This document shows positions 1-2,674 of a stretch of DNA of 64,000 nt, one piece after another. The notes below the pieces were generated by a model. That model worked only from the letters and a program-made list of their open reading frames with translations. It did no database searches and had not been told where the DNA came from. Source of the DNA: Croceivirga radicis (GTDB taxonomy: Bacteria; Bacteroidota; Bacteroidia; Flavobacteriales; Flavobacteriaceae); NCBI RefSeq assembly GCF_002072105.2, contig NZ_MTBC01000001.1, positions 434,001 to 498,000 of the forward strand, read 5' to 3'. The translations under genes and the position numbers were made by a program. Positions within the stretch are counted from its first letter, which is position 1. The number at the start of each line of letters is the position of its first letter.

Positions 1-128
1 TAGGTTTAGATGTTTGGGAACATGCGTACTATTTAAACTATCAAAATAGAAGACCTGATTATGTTAGCGCATTTTTCAATGTAATCAATTGGGATAAAGT
101 ATCAGAGTTATACGAAGCAAATAAATAA
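1..128 (+). CDS. Fe/Mn superoxide dismutase, C-terminal part (5' end outside window)
   Basis: Reading from base 3, the last 41 codons give [20 protein letters not shown] followed by [16 protein letters not shown] and a TAA stop. The D-x-W-E-H-A-Y motif carries the C-terminal Asp and His metal ligands of Fe/Mn superoxide dismutases, and the NRRPDY stretch is also typical of that family. The enzyme dismutates superoxide to peroxide and oxygen. Only the end is present, so metal preference and location cannot be judged. An intrinsic terminator follows 26 bases after the stop. Confidence 0.93.
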
Positions 129-202: not shown

Positions 203-281
203 GAAAATAGAAAAGGGCGGAAATTAATCCGCCCTTTTCGTCCCAAATCTTACCATAAACTTAACCTACTTATGCTATGGC
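203..281 (-). ncRNA. Candidate small RNA, copy 1 of a three-copy array
   Basis: Read on minus, this begins CCATAGCATAAG, runs through a conserved block of about 38 nt (280 down to 242) and ends in a hairpin (211-220 with 229-238) followed by TTTTCTATTTTC. The 5' block is nearly identical to those at 424-463 and 634-671, with one change inside it. The flanking CCAT and ATGG can pair, enclosing a 20-nt loop that contains GGTTAAGTT. The hairpin sequence differs from the other copies but keeps full pairing. A promoter-like -7 element lies 5 bases upstream. The size is about 80 nt. Function is unknown, and the RNA identity is inference from promoter-body-terminator architecture. Confidence 0.6.
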
Positions 282-285
282 GAAA

Positions 286-316
286 CTAAATTACTGGTAT
301 TAAGTATAATAACAAA
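286..316 (-). promoter_or_regulatory. Promoter for small RNA copy 1 (-33 TTTG, -7 TAATTTAG)
   Basis: On minus, TTTG (316-313) is followed after 19 bases by TAATTTAG (293-286), matching 7 of 8 positions of the Bacteroidota -7 consensus TAnnTTTG at the usual spacing. The conserved CCATAGC begins 5 bases later. Confidence 0.55.
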
Positions 317-386
317 AGAAAAATGAGAAAAAATATCGACGAAATGCAGCTTTTATTCAAAACCGATGGGTAAGTAGTTGTGATTC

Positions 387-464
387 AAAATAATAAAGAA
401 GGCGGGTGTTGCCCGCCTTCTTTCCCCAAATCTTACCATGAACTTAACCTACTTATGCTATGGT
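387..464 (-). ncRNA. Candidate small RNA, copy 2 of a three-copy array
   Basis: This is the second copy of the minus-strand module. The conserved block (463 down to 424) is followed by a perfect 12-bp hairpin (395-406 with 412-423, loop 407-411) and the tail TTTATTATTTTG. The block has CATGG where copy 1 has TATGG. ACCAT at the 5' end can pair with ATGGT to close a 20-nt loop. A perfect -7 element lies 5 bases upstream. The hairpin stem GAAGGCGGG is unrelated in sequence to those of the neighbours. Confidence 0.62.
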
Positions 465-468
465 CCTC

Positions 469-476
469 CAAATGTA
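469..476 (-). promoter_or_regulatory. -7 element TACATTTG for small RNA copy 2
   Basis: TACATTTG on minus is a perfect match to TAnnTTTG, 5 bases before the conserved CCATAGC. No TTTG was seen at the expected -33 distance. Confidence 0.5.
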
Positions 477-595
477 AGTTTAGCTTATGGTTTATTCTAT
501 TCTATTGGTCAAAAGACGAATTAAAACGTTTAAAGGTGTGTGCCGGAAAAATATCTTATAGGTCTATTAGGAAAAGCCTTACCCAGCAAAAGTGT

Positions 596-672
596 AAAAT
601 AAAAAAGGTGGAGAAGTTTCCACCTTTTTTGCCCCAAATCTTACCATGAACTTAACCTACTTATGCTATGGT
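596..672 (-). ncRNA. Candidate small RNA, copy 3 of a three-copy array
   Basis: This is the third copy. The conserved block runs from 671 down to about 633, then a hairpin (about 601-612 with 619-630) with core GGTGGA/TCCACC is followed by TTTTTTATTTT. The block is identical to copy 2 over its whole length, while the hairpin is different. The T-rich tail lies on the minus-strand 3' side in all three copies, whereas on plus the hairpins run into GCCCC, CCCC or GTCCC. That fixes the likely transcribed strand as minus. Confidence 0.62.
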
Positions 673-677
673 AGTTA

Positions 678-685
678 TAAAATTA
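678..685 (-). promoter_or_regulatory. -7-like element TAATTTTA for small RNA copy 3
   Basis: TAATTTTA on minus matches TAnnTTTG at 7 of 8 positions and lies 6 bases before the conserved CCATAGC, almost the same place as in copies 1 and 2. Confidence 0.4.
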
Positions 686-775: not shown

Positions 776-2674
776 TTAATACGCACGTTCGTTTTTACCT
801 TCATAAAAGTTCATAAATGCCTTATTAACAACACGGTTACCGCCCGGGGTAGGGTAGTCTCCCGTAAAATACCAATCTCCAGGATTGTCTGGACAAGCCA
901 CATGTAGGTTCTCAATGGTTTGGTAGATAATTTCTACTTTGGTTCCAATATCTTGAGGACTCAATAGTTCCGCTATTTTTTTAGAGATTTCTTCTGGAGT
1001 AAATGCTTCGTATAATTCTTTTACAAAATTCTCAGATTGGTTCGTAGCCTTTTCTGCTTGTGCCACACACTTATTGTAAATTTTTTCTAAAATAGATAGG
1101 GTGTTTTGTTCCTTATGCAATTCTACGGCAGCTCTAAAAGCAATAAAATCTTCTAGTTTGGCCATATCAATACCGTAACAATCTGGATATCTAATTTGTG
1201 GTGCAGAAGATACTACCACTATCTTCTTTGGGCTTAACCTATCTAACATTCTAAGAATACTCTTCTTTAGTGTTGTACCACGTACAATACTGTCATCTAT
1301 AATAACAAGATTGTCTTCTTTGCCAACTGATCCGTAGGTTATGTCATATACATGGGTAACCAAATCGTCCCTACTACTATCTTGGGTAATAAAGGTCCTT
1401 AATTTCGCATCTTTAATGGCCACTTTCTCTATTCTGGGCCTTACATCTATTATTTTGTGTAATTCTTCTCTAGTTATATTGGGCCCCAGCGCTAATATTT
1501 GTTCTTCTTTCTTCTTGTTTAGATAATTCTGGGCTTCTTTTACCATACCAAAGAAAGAGGTTTCTGCCGTATTAGGTATGTAAGAGAATACCGTATTGGT
1601 CAGATCATCTTCTATAGATCGAAGTATTTCTGGGAAAACCAGTTTTCCCAACATCTTTCTTTCTTGATAAATTTCTTTATCACTGCCTCTGGAGAAATAG
1701 ATACGCTCAAAAGAACAAGCCTTTCTTTCCAAAGCAGGCAATATTTCTTCTGTGGTTACCTTACCATTTTTCTTTATAATTATAGCATTTCCTGGGGTAA
1801 GCTCCCTAACATCTTCATATTTTACATTAAATACCGTTTGTATGGCTGGTCTTTCTGATGCTACCACAACAACTTCATCGTCCATGTAGTAATAAGCCGG
1901 TCTTATACCAGAAGGGTCTCTAAGTAAAAAAGCGTCTCCATGGCCTAAAAGACCACCCATGGCATAACCACCGTCCCAGTTTTTTGCTGCTTTTCTAAGA
2001 ATCTTGGCCACATCCAATCGTTCTGCAATATGTGGCGAGGCTTCTCTCTTGCTATAACCTTCCTTTTTTACCTTTTTGTAAAGTTTTGCTACGGCATCAT
2101 CCAGAAAATGACCTATTTTTTCCATTACCGTAACGGTATCTGCCATTTCTTTAGGATGCTGGCCAAGTTCAACCAAATTTCCAAAGAGCTCTTTAACATT
2201 TGTCATATTAAAGTTTCCGGCAACAATAAGGTTTCTGTGCATCCAATTGTTTTGTCTTAAAAACGGATGCACACTTTCTATACTGTTCTTACCAAATGTA
2301 CCGTATCTAACATGACCCAAAAATAGTTCACCAATGTAGGGAACATGTTGTTTTTGGTAAGCCACATCCTCATGGGTTTTTGGGTCTAGCGCCATGGTAT
2401 TATTGATTCGCTGGTTTATTTGCGAAAAAATATCTTGTATGGGCTGTGGTTGTGCGGATCTAACTCTGCTTATATACCGTTCGCCAGGTTCCATATTAAG
2501 TTTAATACTGGCCAAACCAGCACCATCCTGTCCACGGTTGTGTTGCTTCTCCATCATTAGGTACATCTTGTTTACCCCGTAGAAGGCTGTACCGTACTTT
2601 TCTTTATAATACTCTAAAGGTTTAAGTAACCTTAAAAGTGCTATCCCACATTCATGTTTTATTGGATCGCTCAT
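776..2674 (-). CDS. purF: Amidophosphoribosyltransferase (PurF), long Bacteroidota form
   Basis: PurF makes 5-phosphoribosylamine from PRPP and glutamine, the first committed step of purine synthesis, in the cytosol. The N-terminal class II glutaminase domain begins MSDPIKHECGI, with the nucleophile Cys9 after a short propeptide, NRGQDGAG at 46-53 and GHVRYGTFG near 120. The phosphoribosyltransferase domain has the PRPP loop VIIDDSIVRGTT at about 457-468. At 632 residues it is longer than the roughly 500-residue E. coli enzyme; I know this long form as usual in Flavobacteriia. A kinase gene, rnhA and purN lie upstream on the same strand. A terminator hairpin ends only 7 bases before the start codon, so expression may depend on read-through. 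Confidence 0.93.
   Translation of the reverse strand: MSDPIKHECGIALLRLLKPLEYYKEKYGTAFYGVNKMYLMMEKQHNRGQDGAGLASIKLNMEPGERYISRVRSAQPQPIQDIFSQINQRINNTMALDPKTHEDVAYQKQHVPYIGELFLGHVRYGTFGKNSIESVHPFLRQNNWMHRNLIVAGNFNMTNVKELFGNLVELGQHPKEMADTVTVMEKIGHFLDDAVAKLYKKVKKEGYSKREASPHIAERLDVAKILRKAAKNWDGGYAMGGLLGHGDAFLLRDPSGIRPAYYYMDDEVVVVASERPAIQTVFNVKYEDVRELTPGNAIIIKKNGKVTTEEILPALERKACSFERIYFSRGSDKEIYQERKMLGKLVFPEILRSIEDDLTNTVFSYIPNTAETSFFGMVKEAQNYLNKKKEEQILALGPNITREELHKIIDVRPRIEKVAIKDAKLRTFITQDSSRDDLVTHVYDITYGSVGKEDNLVIIDDSIVRGTTLKKSILRMLDRLSPKKIVVVSSAPQIRYPDCYGIDMAKLEDFIAFRAAVELHKEQNTLSILEKIYNKCVAQAEKATNQSENFVKELYEAFTPEEISKKIAELLSPQDIGTKVEIIYQTIENLHVACPDNPGDWYFTGDYPTPGGNRVVNKAFMNFYEGKNERAY

Follow-up and report, generated by a model that had tools for sequence, protein, structure and literature searches.

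In Croceivirga radicis, the first few hundred positions of the 64,000-nucleotide stretch of DNA analysed here (the window, 64 kb) probably hold a head-to-tail array of three independently transcribed trans-acting small RNAs (sRNAs) of about 75 nt, whose invariant segments would pair with the starts of their target mRNAs. The RNA is a member of a real, apparently undescribed, multicopy family conserved across the Flavobacteriaceae, and the family, its architecture, its -7 boxes, its complementarity to mRNA starts and the recurrence of this complementarity at orthologous starts can all be read from the genomes compared. The initial annotation had proposed a paralogous sRNA array with a constant targeting part and variable terminators, and the comparative data support that proposal. 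Each copy looks like a stand-alone sRNA gene of about 75 nt with a -7-box-like element and its own 12-bp terminator, as laid out below, where bit scores refer to a covariance model, R1, built from 44 copies, and where the names purF and superoxide dismutase (sod) are those that I presume for the two flanking genes.

1..128, plus strand: 3' end of the convergent superoxide dismutase gene, the other flank of the array
205..281, minus strand: putative sRNA copy 3 (sod-proximal), 94.8 bits
210..239, minus strand: predicted intrinsic terminator of copy 3 (repeat search and terminator scan)
286..316, minus strand: canonical-looking promoter of copy 3, with TTTG (316-313), 19 nt and TAATTTAG (293-286)
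392..464, minus strand: putative sRNA copy 2 (middle), 87.4 bits
395..423, minus strand: predicted intrinsic terminator of copy 2 (repeat search and terminator scan)
469..476, minus strand: -7 box of copy 2, TACATTTG, from the sequence
598..672, minus strand: putative sRNA copy 1 (purF-proximal), the RNA running from about 672 (the purine before CCAT) to about 598, 99.0 bits
601..630, minus strand: 12-bp hairpin terminator of copy 1, which folds and is absent from the consensus terminator scan
633..671, minus strand: invariant 39-nt 5' block of copy 1, CCATAGC / GTAGGTTAAG / GGTAAGATTTGGG, the segments being candidate seeds
678..685, minus strand: -7-box-like element of copy 1, TAATTTTA, an imperfect match that is shifted upstream by one base relative to the other copies
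754-728: separate terminator-like hairpin after purF (terminator scan)
776..2674, minus strand: purF-like gene of 632 aa, the upstream neighbour of the array and on the same strand

The three direct copies are spaced 183 and 208 nt apart and share a 5' block that is almost invariant, so that the three minus-strand modules with a common block of about 38 nt first noticed in the sequence are confirmed, the block being 39 nt long with a single internal difference (T/C at position 24). The hairpins that follow had been described as variable in sequence and fully paired, and so they are (239-210, 423-395 and 630-601), each with 12 uninterrupted complementary bases and each different in sequence; terminators would need only to fold, leaving their sequences free to vary. 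The size first given, about 80 nt, is corrected to probably about 72-77 nt with a start at the purine before CCAT. A mechanical open reading frame of 89 aa runs antisense over copies 2 and 3 (380-649, plus strand), and a conserved peptide beginning at the ATG inside the block (ATGGTAAGATTT...) was considered and rejected, since an AAGA/AGA indel between clades shifts its frame. Elsewhere in its own genome the RNA has only weak R1 matches of at most 29 bits, two of which, at G000:C12:223984-224050 (+, 29.0 bits) and G000:C16:80304-80369 (+, 28.6 bits), are probably terminators.

Predicted folds of the copies consist of a CCAT/ATGG stem and the terminator, with z-scores of -4.8, -4.2 and -2.4, and positions 1-800 of the window contain five terminator-like sites against 0.4 expected; two of the copies' hairpins appear in the consensus terminator scan, and the third (601-630) folds and is followed by a T-rich stretch. 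In the terminator helix six of nine pairs have changes on both sides, a number that 74 of 500 shuffles also reach, and the cells with such changes number 44 against 14 in the shuffles (0 of 500 as high). The CCAT/ATGG stem gave no covariation in its 10 pairs, eight of which never vary, and it is broken in several divergent family members. The initial suggestion that CCAT and ATGG enclose a 20-nt loop holds to the extent that the stem can close and does so in the predicted folds, and is weakened by this absence of covariation and by the broken members, and for the same two reasons the conservation of the two strings may serve target pairing and not a stem. In genus g147, some extra copies (L228 and L229) have diverged in the loop (GGTTAGTTT and GGTAAATTT), perhaps with changed targets.

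Upstream of the copies, at a fixed position before CCAT, the element TAnnTTTG is exact in 139 of 364 upstream regions and TAnnTT is found within one mismatch in 327 of the 364. The TSS map of Flavobacterium psychrophilum, in the accessible part of that paper, sets this -7 box at -12 to -5 (PMC9723704), so the purine just before CCAT would be +1; copies 2 and 3 of the window fit the spacing, and the box of copy 1 is weaker and lies one base further upstream. In the window's clade the sod-proximal copy has a strongly conserved promoter (TTTG-N19-TAATTTAG), and the other 269 non-redundant upstream regions share half-sites near -71 and -50, at a distance of about 20-21 bp, with upstream self-similarity highest at offset 20 (0.441, against 0.23 to 0.34 for all others in the range 6-35). 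Half-sites like C[AG]TT[TC][AG]WC occur upstream of many copies (e.g., L007, L008 and L018) and look like an activator site; for the direct repeat near -71/-50 a LytTR-type regulator was considered, as a guess only. Transcription itself I infer, and with it an arrangement of one constitutive-looking copy and activator-driven copies, in which the differing upstream regions of the additional copies would allow separate control of dose or timing.

The initial annotation had also suggested a covariance search across relatives and a look into Rfam. Of 299 same-family genomes, 251 carry an R1 match at E<=0.01, and with 14 of the 251 having a best E above 1e-8, 237 of 299 remain at E<=1e-8 (hand count). 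An order-level sample of 246 genomes holds 60 that match R1 at E<=0.01, of which 34 are from the same family and 26 from others (hand counts), and outside the family the matches in this sample are only weak (best E 1.4e-5). When one copy was compared by BLAST with 60 genomes, 27 of the 37 from the same family, own genome included, had a best E below 1e-10 (hand count), and the lowest E among the 23 genomes of other families was 7.5e-6. Because the RNA recurs across the family in this way, a chance origin of the array is excluded. Genome G006, of the same genus, has no strong sRNA match (best E 0.05) and keeps the subtilase site described below (L465), which counts against the targeting and may reflect an assembly gap or loss. 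In Rfam release 15 the whole 64-kb window has no match at the gathering threshold, and none of the sub-threshold matches of the copies is convincing; the literature searches gave no description of this RNA among the matches listed, and the loop strings, searched as literature text, turned up only in two unrelated mammalian papers.

The locus is also syntenic. Among named genomes, with one sequence type, at least 120 stretches carry the array, and the genera among the matches listed include Maribacter, Zobellia, Muricauda/Flagellimonas, Arenibacter, Robiginitalea, Eudoraea, Cellulophaga, Croceivirga and Kordia. Of the 120 named stretches so obtained, each with one to six copies, 104 have the array downstream of purF and on its strand, and purF was not found within the remaining 16, where 13 stretches have sod without purF and three have neither gene. 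Both genes are present in 86 of these 120 stretches, with the array between them in 86 of 86, and wherever sod is seen (99 of the 120) it has the opposite orientation.

What would such an RNA do? The most likely function, judging from the complementarity, is that of a repressor that base-pairs with short leaders and start codons. Its invariant 5' part may comprise up to three pairing segments or seeds, CCAUAGC at the 5' end, GUAGGUUAA in the loop and (G)GUAAGAUUUGG in the linker (in other clades GUAGAUUUGG instead), which would jointly cover a short 5' leader and the start codon. In the best case, 5'-CCAAATCTTAC-TTAACCTAC-GTT-ATGG of a secreted subtilase, CCAUAGC, GUAGGUUAA and GGUAAGAUUUGG are complementary to the whole short leader and start codon (5'-CCAAATCTTAC-TTAACCTAC-GTTATGG), a leader that spans from just past the -7 box to the start codon, with CCAAATCTTAC predicted to pair with GUAAGAUUUGG, TTAACCTAC with GUAGGUUAA and GTTATGG with CCAUAGC, and with four and seven sRNA bases looped out between the segments. 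The loop seed proposed at the outset, GGTTAAGTT, does sit in one of the presumed pairing regions, of which there would now be two or three. Pairing at start regions in the cell, perhaps with the help of a chaperone and in answer to some inducing signal, would block translation initiation of a set of mRNAs, the candidates being those of the secreted subtilase, a lipoprotein and an MTCxxC protein, joined in other genera by that of a 40-aa protein.

Targets in the own genome were sought among 1040 ORF starts (first ATG) in 1.264 Mb, or about 35%, of it. With the loop, three of the 1040 starts form at least 11 contiguous Watson-Crick pairs, a number that 0 of 150 shuffled loops reach (mean 0.09), and at 9 and 10 contiguous pairs the observed counts are reached by 19 and 6 of 150 shuffles; when the whole 40-nt 5' part is used, 13 starts fall at or below -24 kcal/mol (shuffle mean 3.0, maximum 8, 0 of 60 reaching 13), these two thresholds, 11 pairs and -24 kcal/mol, having been picked after the results were known. 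Seven starts lie at or below -26 kcal/mol (shuffle maximum 4, 0 of 60 reaching 7), and at -18, -20 and -22 kcal/mol the observed counts are reached by 3, 4 and 4 of 60 shuffles. Loop-only energy is unexceptional, with 164 starts at or below -10 kcal/mol against a shuffle mean of 120 and maximum of 254, and both the loop alone and the linker seed alone were set aside as energy-based target predictors, neither being exceptional. The two best starts, at -33.1 and -32.0 kcal/mol, beat the best shuffle (-30.4), and they belong to a subtilase with a T9SS sorting domain (Pfam Peptidase_S8 and Por_Secre_tail) and to a lipoprotein-like protein with no Pfam match; the third (-27.5) is that of a 147-aa protein beginning MTCCDC. 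Among the proteins of the 13 starts that reach -24 kcal/mol or lower, only these first two appear by eye to be secreted, so a secreted-enzyme theme is unsupported for this genome. A pectate-lyase-like protein (PelZ 122 bits, cutoff 840) ranks third by the loop alone and falls outside the 25 best with the full 5' part. The start of a LuxR-type response regulator ranks 16th with the full 5' part (-23.1 kcal/mol), and response regulators at L278:641-1285 (+) and L350:315-737 (+) have possible sRNA sites at their starts, which could give feedback.

Beyond this genome, the sites recur across genera at the subtilase, the 40-aa protein, the MTCxxC proteins and lipoproteins with NNDPxxGIW. For the 12 closest subtilase orthologues, whose leaders share ancestry, at most 1 of 100 shuffled leaders pairs as well in 10 of the 12 and at most 4 of 100 in all 12, and the linker-seed site AAATCTTAC is exact in 10 of 12 and the loop-seed site kept in about 4 of 12, while among eight distant homologues the corresponding shuffle results are 0 of 8 and 1 of 8. 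The 40-aa protein occurs in 53 of 249 family genomes and is absent from the own genome (MKN[VIFL]KR...SDFE..., L432-L461 around 1501; a blended query gave no Pfam or NCBIfam match). Among the best 30 of its 53 leaders, tested against a single AGA-type sRNA sequence, 22 of 30 are equalled by at most 10 of 200 shuffles and 16 of 30 by at most 2; leaving out seven genomes already matched by the two-seed pattern described next, 15 of 23 of these best leaders remain, and leaving out one more, matched by the single seed among the matches listed, 14 of 22. The MTCxxC protein of 147-148 aa has an sRNA-complementary start in four genomes (L276:4060-4503 (+), L352, L353 and L389), and its representative in the own genome has no Pfam match.

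Raw pattern counts are less favourable. The single-seed pattern TTAACCTACN{1,8}ATGA occurs 320 times in the 299 genomes against 515 for a backward control, thus below it, and the two-seed pattern CCAAAT-N2..10-TTAACCTAC occurs at 76 places in 59 of these genomes against 65 (hand count), so the second seed betters the ratio to the control (76:65 vs 320:515) and neither pattern is in clear raw excess; stop codons in the motif's complement make this control an imperfect one. In the own genome a 17-nt complement has 14 matches, three of them the array, against 31 for the backward control, and thus no enrichment. The free base after CCAAAT is a C, which lengthens the pairing, in 39 of the 76 two-seed sites against an own-genome background of 22.6%, the sites being mutually dependent through orthologues. 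Half of the two-seed sites examined (17 of 34) lie shortly before the ATG of an ORF of at least 40 aa and half elsewhere. In hand-picked single-seed sites, those followed by TT precede secreted or lipoprotein genes (by eye) in 6 of 20 cases and those without TT in 5 of 19, so that the longer match adds nothing for secreted genes. The targeting theme is weakened by the fewness of secreted genes and by the many sites away from starts. A linker indel of the sRNA goes with the target sequence (AAGA genomes have 7 CTT and 0 CTA, AGA genomes 4 CTT and 10 CTA, with 11 further sites of neither type; Fisher P 0.004, ancestry uncontrolled), in a comparison that mixes phylogeny with gene identity, that covers 32 of the 76 sites, chosen for a C after CCAAAT (with one exception) and a fetched sRNA, and that leaves out eight C sites, among them one of AAGA type with CTT (G108) and one resembling an sRNA copy (G227).

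These counts, together with the half of the examined two-seed sites away from starts and the position of the subtilase sites directly downstream of a -7 box, would suit a leader motif kept for another reason, as a promoter, an initially transcribed sequence or a translation enhancer, with its complementarity to the sRNA secondary or coincidental. I consider this unlikely, given that the best leaders match two or three invariant sRNA parts in order, that shuffles rarely or never equal them and that unrelated genes share the sites. The case for targeting comes from those shuffles, from conservation among orthologues and from the flanking base that the pattern left free, and on this basis a conserved seed apparently complementary to conserved mRNA sites is at hand, the contrary pattern counts notwithstanding. 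With an apparent promoter and intrinsic terminator of its own, the RNA would be classed as a multicopy trans-acting base-pairing sRNA.

The extreme conservation of unpaired bases in a short hairpin RNA that comes in several copies would also suit an RNA that titrates a protein, its invariant single-stranded parts binding an RNA-binding protein in the style of CsrB or an RbpB sponge and its copy number setting the dose. This has a rather low probability in my estimation, as it leaves the complementary leaders at orthologous starts and the extra complementary base unexplained, and protein binding might come in addition to target pairing. About equally doubtful is an identity with the sRNA Rfp18 of F. 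psychrophilum, or with part of it. According to the accessible part of its description, Rfp18 is conserved in the genus, has a homologue expressed in F. columnare and affects secreted protease mRNAs, two of which are lowered upon its deletion, pointing to a positive effect (PMC9723704). Genus g147, with many genomes and perhaps Flavobacterium itself, carries the present RNA with one to five matches per genome, and the identity would entail AGTAGGTTAAG...GATTTGGGG in Rfp18, here compared by description only; however, the same partial source has Rfp18 predicted to pair through a third stem-loop (PMC9723704), whereas the present RNA has two. Finally, it is highly improbable that the copies are cis elements of the purF 3' end or terminator, or a mobile or REP-like repeat, without independent RNA genes, as their usual place behind purF might suggest, for they have their own -7 boxes, purF is followed by its own hairpin (754-728), sod occurs without purF in some of the listed stretches, the rest of the own genome has nothing above 29 bits, and distant BLAST of plasmids and phages and an exact-pattern search of viral contigs gave no match, so that with a syntenic locus and a covarying terminator helix the alternative of a transposon-end repeat, raised at the outset, gives way to a family RNA.

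Returning to the base-pairing repressor, a bolder and tentative version, which I would hold to be possible rather than probable, is that of a core Flavobacteriaceae sRNA hub that silences secreted enzymes and surface proteins through a three-segment zipping of leader and start codon. Its promoters would be one constitutive-looking and several activator-driven, and the 5' CCAU would have a dual role, closing its own hairpin with AUGG when free and pairing with the target AUG when bound. If true, this would be a mode of reading start codons that suits bacteria not using Shine-Dalgarno sequences. Even short of this, the Flavobacteriaceae are widespread in marine, soil and freshwater habitats, and the papers searched yielded few sRNAs from them that have been studied. 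A nearly invariant sRNA in about four-fifths of the sampled family genomes, whose predicted sites span the full leader of a secreted subtilase and recur at a small membrane-like protein, is a directly testable candidate for a post-transcriptional regulator and a clean case of possible sRNA control over leaders without Shine-Dalgarno sequences.

Small sets of near-identical sRNAs with overlapping targets are known from other phyla. The Qrr RNAs of Vibrio are one such set, and LhrC1-5 of Listeria and NgncR_162/163 of Neisseria, as far as the accessible parts of their descriptions go, are likewise a few near-identical genes; all are likened here by design only. Rfp18, from its partly accessible description and by that description only, is similar in being flavobacterial, genus-conserved and of effect on protease mRNAs. 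Closest in design is FopS of Bacteroides (RF04319), small, multicopy and with a 5' seed and start-codon pairing (here predicted). In the accessible part of its report, FopS is 65-70 nt long and multicopy, has a conserved 5' seed and sigma-ABfr promoters, binds close to the start codons of catabolic mRNAs, susC-like ones among them, and exists in 14 copies in B. thetaiotaomicron, and the word 'tandem' is absent from the text of that paper (PMC11697453). The initial analogy with the paralogous sRNAs of Bacteroides hence fits FopS by design, and homology is unsupported, with RF04319 scoring 15.9 bits in the window (model positions 7-71) and 17.4 bits in L232, where the match spans from the inside of the loop to past the terminator, against a gathering cutoff of 56. 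The flavobacterial RNA differs from FopS in its tandem arrays, which among the matches listed lie mostly between purF and sod, and in its seed, with up to three segments as predicted; the best start-codon targets predicted for it so far are the subtilase, lipoproteins and small proteins.
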